Virus record (IMG/VR): IMGVR_UViG_3300021137_000006
Location: 1 to 64,000 of that record
DNA length: 64,000 bases
Direction: 5' to 3' (one strand)
Origin: a virus
Positions within the stretch are counted from its first letter, which is position 1. Each line of letters opens with the position of its first letter. The notes under the pieces were generated by a model. It was not told the DNA's origin. It saw only the letters and a program-made list of their open reading frames with translations, and did no database searches. Shown piece after piece: positions 10,830 to 61,508 of this stretch. The position numbers and the translations under genes were made by a program.

Positions 10830-13800
10830 ATGGCTACACAAGGCGCGGGCGGACCAACTACACAGCCTCAGGGCGGATCAACTACTCCACCTCCGGGAGG
10901 ACCAACTGCTTCTCGAGCTTCGACAAATAGAGGTGACAATCCAGCTATCGACTCAGTTAATAACGGCCTTCAGGTATTAACAGCTAAACTTGCATCTCTT
11001 GCAGCTACTGTAGTTGCAACTCAAGTTGCAATGATGTCGACTTCTAAGACAACTGCAGCTCTCGCTGGACAGACGAACTCTCAACTTAAAAAGCTGACAG
11101 AAGCGTCGATCAATTCAATTACTTCCGAACTTGCAGCACTCGAATCTGCGTCTACAACAGCTGCTCGAGTTATTGACGAATCCACTGCTGCTACTCGTGT
11201 TAAAACCAAAGCAGTTGATGCGGAAATTGCTGGAATTTTCCAAAAAGCCCGCGCAGATGTAGAAGCGACAGCTGCAGCTAAAGCAGCAGTTAACACACTC
11301 ACCAAAGCAAAAGAGGCTGAAGCAATAGCATCAGGCAAGTCTTTTGCTATGTTAAAATCTTCGATACTAAGCATCGAATCGGAGCAAAAGCGTGCTAGAG
11401 AAGCACTAGCCAACTCCGCAGCCGCTTTAGCAAAGTTGGAAGAGGAGTACAACTCTGCTACCGTTCGTACCAAAAAGCTAGATGATCAAATTACACAAGC
11501 TGGAAAAACACTCGAAGGGCATCGCAAGACAGTAGAAGAAGTTGATATCCGATACAATGCCCATGGCGTCGCTCTTGGTAAGCACGTTAATGTGATGGAT
11601 GTTGTGACTACTAAGCTGCTTGGATTTAGTGCAGCTCTGTCCTTTGCTCAAAATGCTAGCAAACTATACGACGAAGCGAATGAAGCCAAGAAAACCGGTA
11701 ATTACGGTAGTTCGTGGGAATTTATGTTGGGTCAAGTTCGTGCTGGTGTATTAGGCGTATCTTCCAAAGTTTATAACGAGCTAAACGCACAAACGCGTGG
11801 ATCTGCATTAACCGACGCTGGTGGACAAGGATCGTTCGATCGGAAGCTCTGGTCGGCTACTAACAAAATGACTGAAATGGCTGGCAATCGTGAAGAGGGT
11901 GCGAAATTAGCTGCTCACACTTTTGAAGCTACTGCAACTGTAGGAGTTAGTTCGAAAATCGCTTCCGAACGGATGGACGAATTAGCCGATGGGTTCAATC
12001 GACTATCTAAAATCACAGGTAAAACAGTCGGAGAAATGGCTGAACTCACGTTTGCTATCACAAAGGATGTCGATCACCGTGCGATAATGCTCGGAATGGC
12101 ACCAGAGGAGCGGGCAAACTACATGCTAAAGCAGCAGCAGGATTTAGTCGATCTAAAGCTACAAGGGTACAGTATTGAACAAGGGCAAGCGTTGCAAAAA
12201 ATCGCAATGCAGCAACGTACTGATACACTTGCTGCTCGTGTGCACAAGCAAGCAAGTGCACAACAAACGATGTACACGATGGCATCGCAAGTCGGTGGCA
12301 AAACTGGCCAGGAAATGCAATCGATTGCGCAGCGTCGTCAAGCTGTGGATCAGGAGCTGATGAATAAGCAGCACACGACAGAAGAGCGGGATAAGCTTCG
12401 GAAGGACCGCGCCGTACTTGATGCAGAATTTCAAGCCAAGTATGAACAAGCAGGAGCATCTGGTGAATTAACCGGGTTGCAGGAAGCTCAGCTTGAAGAA
12501 CAAAACGCGAAACTAAAAAGTAGCACTGGTGTGACAGCAGCACAGTCTGCGATGGAAAAACCAAACGCAGCTAAAATTAAAGAGAAAAGTGAAGAAAAAG
12601 CTCAAGGTTCAGACATTGTATCAAAAACCGTCGATACTGCCGCTGGCTATGCCAGTGCTCTTAGTCACAATACGATGGCGTTAGTAGCATTGTCGGGGGT
12701 AATGACAGCATTTATGTTTTTCAAGGGTGGCGGAAAACTTAGTCTAGGTGGAGCAGCGGAAATCAAAGATGCAATATCTAAACATTTCAATTTCGGCAAA
12801 CAAGCATCAACAGCTGGTAAGGCATCAGAGTTTATCGGCCCACTAAAACCAACTGCAGCTGAGATGGTTGGTCCAGCTAAACCAACTCTTGGTCAAAACC
12901 TTTCTAAAATAAAAGCTGCGGCCCCTGCCGTTGGAGCCGAAGCGCTGCAAGATCTCAAAGGTGGTGCAGTGACGCGCAATCTTAGTAAACTTGGTAAAAT
13001 CCCAGGCGTAAAGAGTTTAGGGATGATTGGAACAGTAATTGGAGTTGCATCAGCAGCCTCTGATATATCCGATATCAGCAAAGAGGTTAAGGCTGGTGAA
13101 CTAACGGAAAAACAAGGCACTGTAAAAAAGGCAGGGGTAGTGGGTAGTGCAGTTGGAAGTATGGCCGGCGCCGCAGCCGGCGCCGGCCTAGGTATGTGGG
13201 GTGGTGCTGCAGCTGGTGCAGCAATTGGTAGCGCAGTCCCTGTCGTTGGAACTGTCATCGGAGGGTTAGTTGGTCTTGCTATCGGCGCCGCCGCTGCATA
13301 TGGCGGCTCGAAACTTGGTGAAATAGCTAGTGAAAAAATAGCGGAAGTTGTCACATCCGACAAGACAGAGGGTGCTATTAAGCAAGTTGCCGAACCACTA
13401 GCGTTAACTGCGAAGGTTAAAGGAGGGCTACCAGTCTCACCAGTCCCACCTTCGTCTGCTCTAATCATGGGTATTGAATCAGCTAATTCACAAGCTCAAA
13501 CTGGTAACCTCGCCCCGATTAGTACATGGGGGGGTACTGCATCGAAGCCGGACCGCGATTTTGATCCACTCAGTACATCCATATACCTCAAGCCGAATAA
13601 AACTGCTGGTATTGCTCCATCGGGCGGAGGATTCGGGATTGCATCGAAGCTGGACCGCGATTTTGATCCACTCAGTACATCCATATACCTCAAGCCGAAT
13701 AAAACTGCTGATTTAAACAAAGGCATCTCGGAGCCTAGTCCTGCAGCTTCTCCGCCCATAGCGGCTCAAACCTCTATTGAAGCGTTGCAACGCACCTTCT

Positions 13801-26255: not shown

Positions 26256-27578
26256 ATGAACTTATTTGAAAATTGGAGCGAAACGAAAGAAGTTTTGCTA
26301 ACTGGCCTACAGGGCGAAAAGCGTAAAGTTGTTGACACTCTTCTTGAGAATCAAAAAACTTACAACCTAAACGAATCCGCAGCTTCTGGCTCAATCGCTG
26401 CACAAGATATCGCTGGCTTCCGTAACATCTTGATCCCTATGATCCGTCGTATTATTCCTGGTACGATTGCAACTGAACTAGTTGGTGTACAGCCAATGAA
26501 GGCTCCAGTCGGTATCGTTTACTCGATGCGTTACAAGTACAACGAAACTCTAGCTGCTCCTGGTACAGTGACAGCCGGTGAAGAAATGTTCGGCAATGCT
26601 GAACCAGTTCGTCGTTACTACTCCGGTGCTACTGATACTGCTCCTGCTGCTGGTGCATCTGGTATTGATAGCGGCACAGGTCAACCAAACATCACAGGCA
26701 TTCCATCTGGTCAAGGTTGGGGCGCAAATGCTGGTCACTCGGCACTAGACGGTTGTACCGTTGGTGGTTCTGGTGGTCAACTAGAAGGTTCTGGCGGCCG
26801 TAAGGTTTCTTTGGAACTAGTGTCACAAGCTGTTGAATCAAAGAGCCGTAAGCTACAAACTGGTTGGACCATCGAAGCGATGCAAGACTTGAATAGCCAA
26901 CATGGTATGAACATCGAAACCGAAATGACGACAGGTATGTCTGCTGAAATCGTTCAAGAAATTGACAACGAAATCATCAGCGACTTGCTAGCTCTAGCTG
27001 GTACAGTTTCTAACTGGGATGGTTCGCTACCTGGTGCCCCTGGTTACTATCGTCCAACATTCGGCGGTGATCGTTTTGCTCAACTAGGCATTATCATCAA
27101 CTACGTCGCGAATGAAATCGGACGCAAGACTCGTCGCGGTACTGCTAACTTCATCGTAGTTTCCCCAATGATCGTTTCTATTCTTCAGTCTGCTGCTAAG
27201 TCCGTCTTCGCCCCAGCTATCGAAGGTTCGTTCAAGGGTCCTAACAATACGATGTTGGTTGGTACTCTAAACGGTTCAATCAAAGTGTACTCATACTTGT
27301 GGAATCAAACCCAATCGACTGACATCGGTGGTACTGGTAACGACCAGATCCTAATCGGTTACAAGGGTGGTAACGGCGAGCAAGACGCTGGTTACTTCTA
27401 CTGCCCATACGTTCCATTGATGAGCACTGGTGTTATTATGAACCCAGTGACAATGCAACCAGTGATGTCCCTAATGACACGTTATGCTAAGGCTCAGTTC
27501 ACTAGCTCAGCAACGTCTCTTGGGAATTCTGCAGATTATTATGGAAAAATCACTGCAACAGGTGTTTCCTTCGCGTAA
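26256..27578 (+). CDS. 23: major capsid protein, T4 gp23-like
   Basis: 440 residues, with AAAGGAAATTG before the ATG. Family features are the N-terminal propeptide, RNILIPMIRRIIPGTIATELVGVQPM (residues 52-78), QTGWTIEAMQDL and a C-terminal SPMIVSILQSA...YKGGNGEQDAGYFYCPYVPL block. The likely gp21 cut is after Glu40 in NLNESAASG, giving a mature subunit of about 400 residues. Leucine is mostly CTA, as in the giant fibre, in line with very high expression. A strong terminator follows. Confidence 0.95.
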   Translation: MNLFENWSETKEVLLTGLQGEKRKVVDTLLENQKTYNLNESAASGSIAAQDIAGFRNILIPMIRRIIPGTIATELVGVQPMKAPVGIVYSMRYKYNETLAAPGTVTAGEEMFGNAEPVRRYYSGATDTAPAAGASGIDSGTGQPNITGIPSGQGWGANAGHSALDGCTVGGSGGQLEGSGGRKVSLELVSQAVESKSRKLQTGWTIEAMQDLNSQHGMNIETEMTTGMSAEIVQEIDNEIISDLLALAGTVSNWDGSLPGAPGYYRPTFGGDRFAQLGIIINYVANEIGRKTRRGTANFIVVSPMIVSILQSAAKSVFAPAIEGSFKGPNNTMLVGTLNGSIKVYSYLWNQTQSTDIGGTGNDQILIGYKGGNGEQDAGYFYCPYVPLMSTGVIMNPVTMQPVMSLMTRYAKAQFTSSATSLGNSADYYGKITATGVSFA

Positions 27579-27602
27579 TCTAACAGAGTTTTCAAACTCA
27601 CC

Positions 27603-27630
27603 AAAAAGGCCTCGAATCGAGGCCTTTTTT
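27603..27630 (+). terminator. rho-independent terminator after the capsid gene
   Basis: AAAAAGGCCTCG pairs with CGAGGCCTTTTT across AAT, then T. Confidence 0.9.
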
Positions 27631-27756
27631 GTTACCTGTTATATATGTCTCCTCACTAAGACCTGACGATTCGTATAGTCGAACGTTGATCACTATATCC
27701 CGTTTCTGTTAAGATTTATTTTTGAGTCAACCTGTCGTTTCGGACATCGATCCTCA

Positions 27757-27763
27757 CTAAATA
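27757..27763 (+). promoter_or_regulatory. late promoter motif CTAAATA before the reductase
   Basis: 57 bases before the start. GATTGGA/TCCAATC (27772-27790) forms a hairpin in the leader. A weak sigma70-like pair, TTGATC (27686) and TAAGAT (27710), lies upstream and would suit a nucleotide-metabolism gene expressed earlier. Confidence 0.4.
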
Positions 27764-27820
27764 ACTTCCTCGATTGGAATTTCTCCAATCTTCACGAACA
27801 CAATCACAAAGGAAAATCAA

Positions 27821-30034
27821 ATGGCAATAGGCAAACAAATGCTGTCGGAATCTAAGTTCTACATGGGTTACAGTAGATGGATCGACGGCGAAAGTCGCTA
27901 TGAAACGTGGGAAGAGTCCGTTAGTCGAGTGATGAATATGCACCGGGAAAAGTATGCTGACAAGATGACAGCAGAGTTGGAAACTCTAATCACTTATGCA
28001 GAACAAGCGTACAAAGACAAGCTGGTACTTGGCGCCCAACGCGCTCTTCAATTCGGCGGGGACCAATTATTTAAGCACGAAGCGCGGATGTACAACTGCT
28101 CAGTCTCTCATGCTGATCGGCCTTCATTCTTCAACGAAACGATGTACCTACTGCTATGTGGCTGCGGAGTTGGATTTTCCGTTCAACGTCACCACATTGC
28201 TAAGCTCCCATCGGTTGCACGTCGGTCACAAAAGAAGGTAAAGATTTTCCAAGTCCCGGATTCAATTGAAGGTTGGGCTGATTCATTTGCAGTATTACTA
28301 AGTAGCTATTTCACAGAAGGTGCGACTCATCCAGAATATCGCGGCTGTCAAGTGCATTTCGACTTTACAAAAGTTCGTCCAAAGGGTGCTTTGATCTCTG
28401 GCGGATTCAAAGCCCCAGGACCTGATGGGCTGCGTGCTGCACTCGTTAAATGCGAAGAGATGATCGAAAACCTACTGAGAGATGCACCAGTGACCAGCAT
28501 CACTAGTATCGTTGCATATGACTTTATCATGCACATGAGTGATGCAGTACTATCTGGTGGTGTCCGTCGCTCTGCTACAATTTGCGTGTTCGACAAAGAC
28601 GATAACACAATGTTGAAAGCAAAGACTGGTAATTGGTTCGTGGATAATCCACAGCGTGGTCGCAGTAACAATTCTGCACTGCTAATTCGTGACGATCTAA
28701 CGCGTGACGAGTGGGCCAACATTATGAAGTCTGTTAAAGACTTTGGTGAGCCTGGGTTCATTTTTGCAGACGACAAAGAGTTTATGTTTAACCCTTGTGT
28801 TGAAATTGGCATGTTGCCTGTTACTGAATCTGGTACCTCCGGCTTCCAATTCTGCAACTTAACTGAAATCAACGGCGGTCAGTGTACTACGAAAGAAATG
28901 CTCATTCGTGCATGCAAGGCAGGCGCCATTCTTGGGACACTCCAGGCTGGATACACGAATTTCAAGTATGTTTCGGCAGCTACTCGCGAAATCACTGCGC
29001 GCGAAGCTCTAATTGGGGTCTCTATCACTGGTTGGATGAATAATCCTGATATCCTATTTGACAAGCAGAATATGGTGGACGGCGCTACTCTTGTAAAAAC
29101 AATCAACAAGCAAGTAGCTACACTAATCGGCATCAATCAAGCTGCTCGCACAACTTGTGTTAAACCGTCTGGCAATGCAAGTGTTGTACTTGGGACTGCG
29201 TCTGGTATTCATGGTGAACACGCACCAAAGTACTTCCGGCATGTGCAGATGAATGCTGACGACGAAGTTGCGCAGATCATCAGCAAGATCAATCCGAAGA
29301 TGGTAGAAACCTCGGTTTGGTCGGCTAACGGTACAGATGTCGTGGTAGCGTTCCCGGTTATCACAAAAGTCGGGTCTAACTACAAACAAGATCTGATGGG
29401 TGTTGCACAATTGGAGTTTGTCAAACTCGCACAACAGTTCTGGGTAGAAGCTGGCACAAATGTCGAATTGTGTCGCCATCCGAAGCTGCGCCACAATGTT
29501 AGCAACACGATCTCCGTTGACAACTGGGACGAAGTCGAGCAGTATATTTTTGACAATCGTGCGCACTTCGCTGGGATTTCACTATTGAGCTCGTTTGGCG
29601 ATCGTGCGTACGTACAAGCTCCGTTTGCAGAAGTGATTGATGCTAAAGCAATTCTCGAACTGTATGGTGAGGGTTCACTGTTCGCATCTGGCCTAATTGT
29701 CGAAGCCTTACACGCGTTCAACGAAAACTTGTGGATCGCTTGTGATACAGTGATGGGATATGGTTTGAAATTAGATGAAGAAAACTCATCGGATATTCTC
29801 AAGCGAGATTGGGTACGTCGAGCGAACAAATTTGCAAAGAATTACTTCAAGGGGGATTTGCAACAAATGACGTTCTGTTTGAAGGATTGTTACAATCTAC
29901 ACAAATGGAATAACATTGTGCATACGATCAAATCTATTGACTTTGCAAGTGATTTATCGCAGAAAAGCTTTGTTGAAGTCGACTCCCTAGCAGGTGCGGC
30001 CTGCTCAGGAGGGGTTTGCGAGCTTACCTTCTAA
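27821..30034 (+). CDS. nrdJ: adenosylcobalamin-dependent ribonucleotide reductase, class II
   Basis: 737 residues, the size of the monomeric Lactobacillus leichmannii enzyme (739). It reduces ribonucleotides to deoxyribonucleotides for phage DNA synthesis using a B12 radical. Cysteines fit the family: Cys93 in YNCSVSH, Cys326 in FNPCVEIG, Cys345 in FQFCNLTEIN, and the C-terminal redox pair Cys728/Cys733 in ACSGGVCELTF. Other landmarks are LSGGVRRSA and TCVKPSGNASVVLGTASG. It is intact, with no intein or intron. AAAGGAAAATCAA precedes the ATG. It is oxygen-independent but needs host cobalamin or scavenged cofactor. It stands alone between two terminators. Confidence 0.92.
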   Translation: MAIGKQMLSESKFYMGYSRWIDGESRYETWEESVSRVMNMHREKYADKMTAELETLITYAEQAYKDKLVLGAQRALQFGGDQLFKHEARMYNCSVSHADRPSFFNETMYLLLCGCGVGFSVQRHHIAKLPSVARRSQKKVKIFQVPDSIEGWADSFAVLLSSYFTEGATHPEYRGCQVHFDFTKVRPKGALISGGFKAPGPDGLRAALVKCEEMIENLLRDAPVTSITSIVAYDFIMHMSDAVLSGGVRRSATICVFDKDDNTMLKAKTGNWFVDNPQRGRSNNSALLIRDDLTRDEWANIMKSVKDFGEPGFIFADDKEFMFNPCVEIGMLPVTESGTSGFQFCNLTEINGGQCTTKEMLIRACKAGAILGTLQAGYTNFKYVSAATREITAREALIGVSITGWMNNPDILFDKQNMVDGATLVKTINKQVATLIGINQAARTTCVKPSGNASVVLGTASGIHGEHAPKYFRHVQMNADDEVAQIISKINPKMVETSVWSANGTDVVVAFPVITKVGSNYKQDLMGVAQLEFVKLAQQFWVEAGTNVELCRHPKLRHNVSNTISVDNWDEVEQYIFDNRAHFAGISLLSSFGDRAYVQAPFAEVIDAKAILELYGEGSLFASGLIVEALHAFNENLWIACDTVMGYGLKLDEENSSDILKRDWVRRANKFAKNYFKGDLQQMTFCLKDCYNLHKWNNIVHTIKSIDFASDLSQKSFVEVDSLAGAACSGGVCELTF

Positions 30035-38763: not shown

Positions 38764-40887
38764 ATGGCATCACTAGTTTCCCCAGGCGTAACAACTCAAT
38801 TAACCGACCAGTCGTTATTCGTTCCAAGCGTAGCGGATACCGTTCCGTTGTTTTTTATCGCCACTCAACAAAGCAAAAAGCAAACGGACGGCATTACAAC
38901 AGCTCTAGGTACAACAGAAAGCAACGTCGTTCGTACAATCACTTCATTGCAAGATAGTCTGACCCAGTACGGCATTCCATCGTTCCTTACAGCAACCTCT
39001 GGCGCAGCGCTACACGGTGATGCTCGTAATGAAGTTGGTCTGTTCACGTTAAATCGCTTCCTAGGAATCGGTAGCCTTGCGTATGTCGTTCGTGCTAATG
39101 TTAATTTGAGCGATGACTATACAGCCACGTCAACGTCTTGGACAGCTAAATCATCCGCCGCTGCTGCTGAACTCCAATCATTGATTTCAGCATATCTCAA
39201 CGCATATAACATGCAAAATGGTTACTTACCAACAGATCCGTTGTTTAAGATTACAGTTACGAACGTGGAATTGACTACGTTCATTAACCAAGTGATGTCG
39301 TCGATTTTTGCCGAAAACACATTCAGTAAAACCGAGGCTGACTTTTATCTAAACCGTTGGATGGCGGGCATTAGCGCAGCAGGCTCTCAAACTATCAGCT
39401 TCAGTGGTGCTGCAAGTTCAACTTCGGCAACTGGACTGGCTAATGATGCCACAGCATATACTGCAGTTATCGTTGTCGATGGCGTAGCCAAACCAGTGGT
39501 GGTAAGCGGATCAGCTGCTCAGACGATCGGAAACTTACTTGTTCAAATAAATGCCAAACTTGGTGGAACTGCAATTGCTTCGTTGACAGGCGGTAACATA
39601 GTAATTACATCAGCAACTGTTGGTTCAAACTCCTCAGTTCTAGTGATCGACACTAACTTGTTCACTTCTGTAATTGGTTACCGTTCCTTATTGTTAGCCA
39701 TTCCAGGCGCAAGCGCAATTTCGCCACTAAACGTGTATGCGAATGGCTTCAATCAGCCATCTACTAGTGAATATCTAGGCATGAAGGGCGTGATCGCAGT
39801 TTGGTCGAATGCTCTCGCATCAGGCGGCGGGGCAAGCGCAAATCCATACGAGTGGACAGCAATTGAAGCTTCACAAACGTTGCTAAATGCTACTGATGAT
39901 TTCGTCGTGACAGCTGAGTTCTCCAATGAGACTAGTCTAGGCGCTGCTGATGCTGAAAAACGTCAATCGATTGTCACCGCACTCCAAGCTATTATTAACA
40001 GCAACACAGAAGTTCGCTCTGAATTGTATGAGTATAACCTAGTTGTTTGTCCAGGTTTTGCTGAAGTTGTGGACGACTTGTTGACTCTAGTTGAAGATAT
40101 TGGCGAAGAAGCGTTCGTAATTGGTGACGTTCCTTATCAACTAACTCCAGAAGCAGCTGCCAATTGGGCTGTTGCTCCTGCGTCTGCTGCAGATAGTCGC
40201 CGCGTTAACCGCAATGTCGCTTACTACTATCCACACGCAATCGCATCGAATGTTGATGGTAATGACGTGTTCGTCCCTGCATCGGCAATTGCCTTGCGTA
40301 CCTACGCTTATAGTGACACCCAGAGTGAAGTTTGGTTTGCACCTGCTGGTGTTACTCGTGGTACCGTTACAGGAATCTCACGAGTTGGCTATATCAGTGG
40401 CATTCTAGGTCAACCTACCTCCTTTGTGGATGTTGCACTAAACAAGGGCCAACGTGACGCATTGTATCAGTATTTCAGCAACATCAACCCAATTGCTAAT
40501 CTACCAGGCCGTGGCATTCTTGTATTTGGTCAAAAGACCTCACAAAATGTTGCTAGCGCACTTGACCGTGTTAACGTCGCTCGTTTGGTTGCGTATATTC
40601 GCCGTCAAGCGCGTAAGCTTGGATTTGGATTCTTGTTCGAACCAAATGATACTATCACTCGTGCAAACTTCAAGTCGGCAATCGATGGTATGTTAAGCAC
40701 GATTATGACATCACGCGGCCTCGTCGATTACCTATCAGTATGCGATACTTCAAACAACACCCCTGCTCGTATTGGTGCAAATGAGTTGTATCTGGATATC
40801 GCATTGAAACCAATGATTGCAGCTGAATTTATCATCATCCCAATCACTGTTAAATCACAAGGAGCGAGTTTATCAGCATCGTCTTAA
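38764..40887 (+). CDS. 18: contractile tail sheath protein, T4 gp18-like
   Basis: 707 residues (T4 gp18 is 659), with AAAAGGATCC before the ATG. The start SLVSPGVTTQLTDQSLFVPSVADTVPLFFIAT is a sheath N-terminus. The C-terminal half contains the conserved VNPIANLPGRGILVFGQKT-like block (here NINPIANLPGRGILVFGQKT), followed by RVNVARLVAYIRRQ and LYLDIALKPMIAAEFI. Residues 200-300 form the surface-exposed insert domain. A strong terminator follows. Confidence 0.95.
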   Translation: MASLVSPGVTTQLTDQSLFVPSVADTVPLFFIATQQSKKQTDGITTALGTTESNVVRTITSLQDSLTQYGIPSFLTATSGAALHGDARNEVGLFTLNRFLGIGSLAYVVRANVNLSDDYTATSTSWTAKSSAAAAELQSLISAYLNAYNMQNGYLPTDPLFKITVTNVELTTFINQVMSSIFAENTFSKTEADFYLNRWMAGISAAGSQTISFSGAASSTSATGLANDATAYTAVIVVDGVAKPVVVSGSAAQTIGNLLVQINAKLGGTAIASLTGGNIVITSATVGSNSSVLVIDTNLFTSVIGYRSLLLAIPGASAISPLNVYANGFNQPSTSEYLGMKGVIAVWSNALASGGGASANPYEWTAIEASQTLLNATDDFVVTAEFSNETSLGAADAEKRQSIVTALQAIINSNTEVRSELYEYNLVVCPGFAEVVDDLLTLVEDIGEEAFVIGDVPYQLTPEAAANWAVAPASAADSRRVNRNVAYYYPHAIASNVDGNDVFVPASAIALRTYAYSDTQSEVWFAPAGVTRGTVTGISRVGYISGILGQPTSFVDVALNKGQRDALYQYFSNINPIANLPGRGILVFGQKTSQNVASALDRVNVARLVAYIRRQARKLGFGFLFEPNDTITRANFKSAIDGMLSTIMTSRGLVDYLSVCDTSNNTPARIGANELYLDIALKPMIAAEFIIIPITVKSQGASLSASS

Positions 40888-60583: not shown

Positions 60584-60591
60584 TGAAATGT

Positions 60592-60708
60592 AGTTGCTCC
60601 TGCTGGGCCAGGAGTTCCCACCGAGGGTAGTATGCTATTCGATTCAGCTGAAAGTATGGTACACATAAATCCGCACGGTTCGGAAAGGTTCGAATCCTTT
60701 AGCAACTT
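60592..60708 (+). ncRNA. 117-base tRNA-like RNA with enlarged core
   Basis: The ends AGTTGCT/AGCAACT pair like an acceptor stem and a perfect T-arm AAAGG/CCTTT with TTCGAAT is present. TCCTG/CAGGA forms a D-arm-like hairpin and TCCG/CGGA a variable-arm-like one. The central 60 bases do not give a convincing anticodon arm and there is no CCA. It may be a tRNA with an insertion or a decayed one. Confidence 0.4.
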
Positions 60709-60716
60709 CGTATATT

Positions 60717-60791
60717 GCCCTTGAAGTGTAGACAGCGACACACTTGTTTCGTAATCAAGAGAGTGGTGGGCAGGTCACCACAAGGGCACCA
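60717..60791 (+). tRNA. tRNA-Thr(CGT), non-canonical T-loop
   Basis: Acceptor GCCCTTG/CAAGGGC, D-stem GTGT/ACAC, anticodon stem CTTGT/TCAAG, loop TTCGTAA, T-stem TGGTG/CACCA. The T-loop is GGCAGGT. Encoded CCA. Confidence 0.75.
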
Positions 60792-60871
60792 TTTAAAAGA
60801 GTTTTCGTCCCCTGCGAGAATTCTTCTAAATGGTCGGATTTTTCAGACTATATACATTAAGCGGATACAGA

Positions 60872-61288
60872 ATGGCGTACAGCAAGCACAATATAACATG
60901 CTTACACTGTGGCACGGAGCGAGAACAGAGCAAACACTCAGCAAGAGGAAAGTTCTGTTCAAACAGGTGTCAAGTTGATTACCAGTACAACCAGTTTATA
61001 CAGCGTTGGTTAGCTGGCGAGGAGACTGGTTTGAGTGGACAGCGTGGAATAAGTTTGCACGTTCGACGTTTTGTATTTGAAAAGTTTGATAGCAAGTGTG
61101 TTGAGTGTGGCTGGAATCAAAAGCACCCAACAGATGGTCGAATTCCACTGGAAGTAGATCACATAGATGGTAACTGGATGAATACGACGGAATCTAATTT
61201 GCGGTTGTTGTGTCCAAACTGTCATTCACTTACGATAACTTATAAGTCGAGAAATCGACAGAGTAGTAGAAAGTACAAGCCCGATTAG
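60872..61288 (+). CDS. HNH endonuclease
   Basis: 138 residues from the ATG at 60872 (a longer frame from 60830 is possible). N-terminal zinc-ribbon CLHCGTEREQSKHSARGKFC and CSNRC; HNH core CVECGWNQKHPTDGRIPLEVDHIDGNW followed by NLRLLCPNCHSLT. The core is the same type as the remnant at 55926. The stop codon TAG (61286-61288) falls within the next tRNA, directly after its acceptor stem. A freestanding homing endonuclease sitting against a tRNA. Confidence 0.88.
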   Translation: MAYSKHNITCLHCGTEREQSKHSARGKFCSNRCQVDYQYNQFIQRWLAGEETGLSGQRGISLHVRRFVFEKFDSKCVECGWNQKHPTDGRIPLEVDHIDGNWMNTTESNLRLLCPNCHSLTITYKSRNRQSSRKYKPD

Positions 61289-61426
61289 CTCAGGGGTAGA
61301 GCAACCGCCTTTTCGGAGAGGATAATGACCTCTCTCCACAGGAGATTCTCACGAGTCTCCTGTACAGGAGGATAACTCCAAAAGGTAAGCGGTAGGTCGT
61401 CTGTTCGAATCAGACATTGGGCACCA
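61279..61426 (+). tRNA. tRNA-Thr(GGT) interrupted in the anticodon loop
   Basis: Outer parts are canonical: acceptor GCCCGAT/ATTGGGC, D-stem GCTC/GAGC, anticodon stem ACCGC/GCGGT, T-arm GTCTG/CAGAC with TTCGAAT, encoded CCA. Removing 61311-61383 (73 bases) between T33 and G34 gives loop CTGGTAA. Other nearby cut points would give other anticodons, but the surrounding sequence fits Thr(GGT). Confidence 0.75.
61311..61383 (+). other. 73-base structured insertion in tRNA-Thr
   Basis: Contains two hairpins, GAGAGG/CCTCTC (61316-61334) and ACAGGAGA/TCTCCTGT (61338-61363), and direct repeats of ACAGGAG (61338, 61364) and GGATAA (61320, 61370). The flanks CCTTTT...GGAG and CTCC...AAAAGG can pair. 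It is far too short for a group I intron. Confidence 0.65.
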
Positions 61427-61433
61427 AAATTTA

Positions 61434-61508
61434 GCTCCTAAAGTGTAGATGGCGACACACTGGTTTTGTAATCCAGAAAGCGAGGTTCAAGTCCTCGTGG
61501 GAGCACCA
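61434..61508 (+). tRNA. tRNA-Thr(TGT)
   Basis: Acceptor GCTCCTA/TGGGAGC, D-stem GTGT/ACAC, anticodon stem CTGGT/TCCAG, loop TTTGTAA, T-arm CGAGG/CCTCG with TTCAAGT, encoded CCA. Its D-arm is like that of tRNA-Thr(CGT). Confidence 0.88.

Follow-up and report, generated by a model that had tools for sequence, protein, structure and literature searches.

A conserved 73-nt insert in the anticodon loop of a phage tRNA-Thr gene: a candidate short structured intron outside group I

To our knowledge, the tRNA introns of bacteria are thought to be self-splicing only. In Lak megaphages, tRNA introns belonging to no Rfam class were reported in 2019, one of them lying in a tRNA-Thr(TGT) gene and possibly encoding a tRNA itself; their sequences are conserved between phages and their mechanism is unknown (Devoto et al., 2019, PMC6784885). 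The original prediction for the locus described here had taken all known phage tRNA introns to be group I, a statement that the Lak introns make out of date (PMC6784885), and the literature searched yielded no later study of introns of the Lak type. A short insert lying next to a homing endonuclease gene has a precedent in T4 gene 60 (PMC5009743), and the work on SegB shows that homing endonucleases are able to amplify phage tRNA loci (PMC13096335). The locus that we describe is of the Lak type, in that an insert matching no Rfam family lies in the anticodon loop of a phage tRNA and is conserved between phages.

The window, that is, the whole stretch of 64,000 nucleotides that was analysed, comprises bases 1–64000 of an 81,867-base virus contig. 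With introns allowed, ARAGORN found a single interrupted tRNA in it, a tRNA-Thr at 61279–61426 with an insert of 73 nt, which was missed by the same program at its default setting without introns and by the Rfam search. A stem-based scan recovered the exon pairing (acceptor 7/7, D 4/4, T 5/5) and a CCA encoded at the 3' end. Both methods thus confirmed what had been predicted, a tRNA-Thr with canonical outer parts and a 73-base insertion in the anticodon loop, and the anticodon stem ACCGC/GCGGT described as closing around the insertion was recovered by the scan with 5/5 pairs. When the gene was compared with isolate phages and plasmids by BLAST, the matches were limited to the exons, with intact tRNAs, or were due to chance, and a pattern scan for interrupted Thr tRNAs of the GGTAA type gave 12 matches, all of them ordinary tRNAs lying side by side. 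The gene and its neighbours are arranged as follows:

60717 to 60791, + strand: tRNA-Thr(CGT), upstream neighbour (Rfam)
60872 to 61288, + strand: free-standing HNH endonuclease gene (PF01844 and PHROG HNH matches)
61279 to 61311, + strand: 5' exon of the tRNA-Thr, with the acceptor 5' strand, D arm, anticodon stem 5' strand, C32, U33 and U34 (ARAGORN -i and stem scan; nearest bodies Thr(TGT))
61312 to 61384, + strand: 73-nt insert or putative intron, UUCGGAG...CUCCAAAAG, placed for a junction at 34/35 (ARAGORN -i)
61385 to 61426, + strand: 3' exon of the tRNA-Thr, with G35, U36, A37, A38, anticodon stem 3' strand, variable loop, T arm, acceptor 3' strand and A73-CCA (ARAGORN -i and stem scan)
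61434 to 61508, + strand: intact tRNA-Thr(TGT), downstream neighbour (ARAGORN; same order in the related phage L433)
61674 to 61748, + strand: intact tRNA-Thr(GGT) (ARAGORN)

When viral contigs were scanned for a 20-base word taken from the insert's 3' end, one other record contained it, L433, which belongs to the 109,810-base contig G048. There, the same insert interrupts a tRNA-Thr at the corresponding position, and the gene lies in a syntenic array that runs Ser(TGA), Ser(GGA), an odd tRNA-like gene, Thr(CGT) and the interrupted Thr, followed by Thr(TGT), Thr(GGT), Arg(GCG) and Ser(GCT). The two inserts are identical at 69/73 positions (94.5%), with three of the four differences located in a loop or linker and the remaining one in a terminal wobble pair, whereas the exons, with the loop left out, are identical in 48/67 aligned columns (72%; Fisher p = 4e-4 for the difference between insert and exons). 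Among the 21 exon stem pairs, 13 are the same, seven have changed on both sides and still pair and none has changed on one side only, the single pair broken in L433 being 13–22 of the D stem. Conservation of the insert in a related phage, which had been named beforehand as a check, is borne out by these figures together with the compensatory changes. Those changes need not all postdate the split, however, as the exons may have been swapped with other Thr tRNAs, given the similarity of the window exons to Thr tRNAs from other phages. The neighbouring tRNA-Thr(CGT) is 96% identical between the window and L433 by alignment, and strong conservation is therefore not confined to the insert.

Only two members of the insert family are known, those of the window and of L433, both from metagenome contigs, which counts against reading the insert as an intron. 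Structure model R1, applied to 200 loci, returned the two known members, their reverse strands and one chance match, and so gave no relative of the window insert besides L433. A three-hairpin insert in L188 was considered as a relative and rejected, being unrelated by the same model. Searches for relatives through the terminase yielded just fragments or distant records, none of them with the insert, and a search through the papain-like protease encoded in the array yielded none.

Some other features of the array were observed. The odd tRNA-like gene (window 60591–60712; L433 10035–10154, − strand) is 80% identical between the two phages and about 115 nt long; its acceptor (AGTTGCT/AGCAACT) and T arm are paired, with two compensatory changes, a second T-loop-like sequence, TTCGATT, lies inside it, and it is possibly another interrupted tRNA. 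A hairpin, AAGAGTTTTCG...CGAGAATTCTT (window 60792–60835), follows tRNA-Thr(CGT) and is about 90% identical in L433. The array of the window also holds the papain-like cysteine protease gene (PF00112; 61739–62506); IMG/VR yielded no relative of it, and L433 has no gene at the matching place.

A seven-base anticodon loop can be restored in three ways, giving GGT with a cut at 33/34, TGT at 34/35 and TTT(Lys) at 35/36. We compared the tRNA body with 2,245 distinct intact tRNAs taken from the fetched loci. The best matches were Thr tRNAs with the anticodons TGT, TGT, CGT and TGT and did not include any Lys tRNA; for the L433 body, too, the nearest was a Thr(TGT) tRNA, whose CTCGC/GCGAG anticodon stem is identical. 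Since the body is nearest to Thr(TGT) and Lys is absent from the best matches, UGU with a split at 34/35 is the best supported reading and probably the correct one. The GGU anticodon originally proposed is possible, at the price of a 33/34 cut, but less likely than UGU, the nearest intact bodies being Thr(TGT) for both the gene and its L433 ortholog. A cut at 34/35 yields the loop CTTGTAA in both genes.

Folded alone, the insert reached −32.8 kcal/mol, as compared with −17.3±3.0 for shuffles (z = −5.2). The fold contained three hairpins, not the two first described, and in the MFE fold of the whole gene a further helix joined the ends:

61315 to 61335, + strand: hairpin 1, 7 bp with a 7-nt loop (insert fold); in L433 the loop is changed and the stem is kept except for the terminal wobble pair
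61338 to 61363, + strand: hairpin 2, 11 bp with a UCAC loop (insert fold); unchanged in L433
61367 to 61379, + strand: hairpin 3, 4 bp (GGAG/CUCC) with a GAUAA loop (insert fold); unchanged in L433
61309 to 61384, + strand: end-pairing helix, CUUUU at 61309–61313 with AAAAG at 61380–61384 (whole-gene MFE fold)

In the whole-gene fold, the CUUUU/AAAAG helix extends the anticodon stem and GUAA is left bulged. Rfam matched nothing to the insert at E <= 1, in the window or in the L433 region, and with this result and a total of 73 nt the catalytic core of group I (P3–P8, with the G-binding site in P7) was not found. The end signature of group I, a U at the exon end and a G at the insert end, appeared only for the 34/35 cut (CTT/TTCGG...AAAAG/GTAA). 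No bulge-helix-bulge of the archaeal type (EndA, 3-4-3) was present in the window gene or its L433 ortholog, and a search of 61312–61384 for tRNA-like arms (a T arm plus an acceptor-like stem) gave no T loop and no tRNA match. The earlier judgement that the insert falls outside group I therefore holds, as it is without the core and without an Rfam match.

Scans of viral contigs and the stem-based search gave about 40 phage tRNAs with inserts of 22–123 nt in the anticodon loop. Most of these inserts contain a T arm together with an acceptor-like stem, and many are truncated or whole tRNAs, the NCCA end of the nested tRNAs directly abutting the last three or four bases of the loop (the last three in the whole-tRNA inserts of L019, L053, L222, L225 and L260); RNase P and 3' processing could provide an excision route for them. 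The insert of L027 is a mere hairpin plus TCCA. Removal at 35/36 restored the isotype of the nearest intact body in 19/38 cases, compared with 5.4 after shuffling. At loci picked by their HNH gene alone and treated by equal rules, with 252 normal genes alongside, insertions of 18–130 nt fell in the anticodon loop in 10 cases, in the D loop in one and in the T loop in none (p about 5e-4), one more insertion, between the D and anticodon arms, being a doubled anticodon arm. The nested-tRNA pattern gave 110 matches in 84,980 cellular genomes, of which three were reported as interrupted and one, on the small contig L364, was judged real; owing to this near-absence, the nested type looks virus-specific. 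An isolate also carries such a gene, namely Agrobacterium phage Atu_ph07, in which an unannotated tRNA-Lys (L300 7124–7244, corresponding to MF403008 68136–68306) with a TGCAAAT loop is split by about 48 nt.

The window insert shares its class of site with this wider set and differs from it in fold, having no T loop and no tRNA match. Its split at 34/35 (or 33/34), as opposed to mostly 35/36 in the class, counts against the intron reading, and so does the fact that, unlike most of the class, it has no tRNA-like arm recognisable by RNase P. We are evenly divided on whether phages carry a widespread class of short, non-group-I anticodon-loop introns with an undescribed mode of removal, of which the 73-nt insert would be a distinct conserved family; as alternative routes of removal in such a class we propose either a new small ribozyme or the joint action of tRNA-processing nucleases and an RNA ligase.

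Further inserts were recorded during these scans. Nested whole or truncated tRNAs lie at L019 100–225 and 693–846, L053 9184–9327, L222 2123, L225 679, L260 3664 and L313 5003, and compact inserts like that of Atu_ph07 occur in L097, L114, L169, L179 and L183. tRNA inserts of 40–60 nt with a (G)ACAGCAA motif recur in L043 (12938–13436), L053 (11561–11920), L019 (5824–6095) and L024 (7448 and 11850); they sometimes apparently lie 5' of the anticodon arm and have no Rfam match. At L024 5952 and 7891 and at L054 7928, 9575, 10709 and 16223, the inserts consist of a hairpin that often resembles ACNGAGTAAACNGT and, after it, a tRNA-like minihelix or a whole tRNA. Contig G048 has another tRNA (40342–40449, − strand) with a 32-nt hairpin insert in its anticodon loop, and L018 has a tRNA-like gene with two successive anticodon arms (13593–13686).

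From these sequence comparisons, we consider it likely that positions 61312–61384 are a short structured intron outside group I in a working tRNA-Thr(UGU) gene. We prefer this reading because the same insert occupies the same site in L433 while the exons have diverged and kept their fold; because both differing bodies are nearest to Thr(TGT) and a 34/35 cut gives the same loop in each; because the insert is far more stable than its shuffles and its changes in L433 are confined to loops, linkers and a terminal wobble pair; because the wider class favours the anticodon loop and removal of its inserts restores a matching isotype; and because the relative encodes a protein of the T4 RNA ligase 1 family, although in a split gene. 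The splicing, its exact cut sites and its enzymes we infer. The precursor would fold as a cloverleaf with the insert stacked onto the anticodon stem, and pairing of the insert ends would bring both splice sites together. The insert would be cut out between U34 and G35, most likely through nuclease cuts, and an RNA ligase, whether a phage tRNA-repair enzyme (Rnl1-like) or one from the host, would seal the nicked loop, so that a normal CUUGUAA anticodon loop results. An unusual splicing route, one of the explanations first put forward, would thus fit best with an insert that is conserved in L433 and is not group I.

A candidate for the sealing step was found in G048, which encodes the N-terminal domain of the T4 RNA ligase 1 family (PF09511) with a KADG motif:

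G048 26382 to 28421 (L438 6382 to 8421), − strand: T4 Rnl1-like RNA ligase gene, apparently split

On the opposite strand, a NUMOD3 homing-endonuclease gene apparently interrupts the ligase gene. Beyond it, the C-terminal half of the ligase likely lies, as read from motifs; no tool matched that half. No RNA ligase was found in the window's own 82-kb fragment, which counts against the intron reading, as does the lack of enrichment of PF09414 ligases in insert-bearing contigs (11/16, compared with 14/23 controls, p = 0.74). RtcB was absent from the insert-bearing contigs, including that of the window and G048. Since such phages commonly have ligase genes whether or not they carry inserts, the evidence for a ligase in sealing is suggestive only.

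The same fold and conservation could be explained if the insert were a functional RNA carried on a tRNA scaffold, matured by RNase P and at its CCA end and never spliced. Such an RNA might have a regulatory role or serve as a decoy for anticodon nucleases. In favour of this, the insert is very stable and better conserved than the exons, the array holds two spare Thr tRNAs, and the exon stems would be retained for folding and end processing. Nevertheless, we find this explanation unlikely, because the loop remnants still read Thr in two different Thr bodies and because the class keeps the agreement between body and anticodon across the gap, which a scaffold would not need.

The HNH endonuclease gene next door ends inside the tRNA, as had been predicted, its stop codon being U8-A9-G10 (61286–61288), and a stop at the same −9 offset in a tRNA was seen in about ten further cases of the family, in which such overlaps of the stop with a tRNA start are frequent. 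In the viral contigs, 46/83 family copies had a tRNA within 120 bases downstream (<=120), and Thr(UGU) made up 12/46 of these tRNAs, compared with 61/1248 in the background (p = 4e-6). Some members apparently lie inside tRNA group I introns, as judged from sequence, and in L021 a group I intron in the next tRNA was confirmed by Rfam; among isolate phages, relatives touching tRNA-Thr genes occur, for example, in Klebsiella phage vB_Kpn_B01 and Streptomyces phage Jada. In L027, an HNH gene is followed by a Thr(UGU) tRNA that is split by only 22 bases and stands beside an intact one. At the L433 site the HNH gene is absent, and no relative of it was found anywhere in G048. Insert and endonuclease are thus not inherited together, and the insert is therefore independent of the HNH gene, which is a tRNA-seeking neighbour and no necessary part of it. 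The mobile-element link drawn earlier through this gene is not supported, the relative having the insert without it and the family being a general neighbour of phage tRNAs.

We regard as quite improbable a MobA-like cassette, in which the HNH enzyme would cut uninterrupted tRNA-Thr(UGU) while the insert protects against the cut and spreads by means of it. The strong tie of the family to Thr(UGU), its members in tRNA group I introns, the arrangement in L027 and the presence of the same insert within the exons of two Thr lineages would all suit such a cassette, but, besides the L433 insert that occurs without the window's HNH, most HNH-adjacent Thr genes are uninterrupted, and splicing would still be required to keep the tRNA working.

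The interrupted gene may be dispensable, because two intact Thr tRNAs lie nearby, but the idea that the spare Thr(GGT) tRNA covers a loss is not needed to explain the data. With such redundancy and a homing-type HNH gene adjoining, the tRNA could have been broken by a chance or mobile insertion that was then tolerated. A pseudogene of this kind is very improbable, however, as the insert recurs at the same site in the syntenic but diverged L433, where the stems are intact through compensation except for one D pair; that two different, near-intact Thr bodies hold the same insert in the same place speaks strongly against a dead gene or an assembly error. A degenerate group I intron that has lost its core is hardly credible, even with the U and G at the 34/35 junction and HNH relatives in tRNA group I introns, since 73 nt are too few for P3–P8, Rfam gave no match at E <= 1 and a remnant would not be conserved beyond its exons.

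A conserved insert with neither a group I core nor a bulge-helix-bulge, among some 40 split tRNAs, would imply an undescribed splicing route in phage-infected bacteria, and since tRNA finders without an intron option miss such genes, phage tRNA counts and the codon arguments built on them are incomplete. Among known systems, tRNA group I introns such as that of cyanobacterial tRNA-Leu(UAA) resemble the insert in the 34/35 split, with U before it and G at the insert end, but they measure about 190 nt or more and have a core, whereas the insert has 73 nt and none. The protein-spliced tRNA introns of archaea and eukaryotes are likewise short structured inserts in the anticodon loop with intact exons, although they sit at 37/38 and not at 34/35, and the gene has no bulge-helix-bulge, nor was an RtcB found in either contig. 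Nested phage inserts (L019, L053, L215, L260, L313, Atu_ph07 and others) share the anticodon loop and the large tRNA arrays, but they lie mostly at 35/36 and have a T arm and acceptor-like stem, often with NCCA, none of which the window insert has. The 50-nt bypass element of T4 gene 60, with MobA, is also short and structured and adjoins the gene of a free-standing homing endonuclease; it interrupts an mRNA and is skipped by the ribosome, whereas the insert described here lies in a tRNA gene and occurs in L433 without the HNH gene. The Lak introns resemble the insert in being outside Rfam, conserved between phages and in one case located in tRNA-Thr(TGT), although, as compared by description, that Thr intron may encode a tRNA, whereas the window insert has three hairpins and no tRNA-like arms. 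Within a kind that is already known yet unexplained, the window insert is a new variant, not tRNA-like and with a conserved relative.
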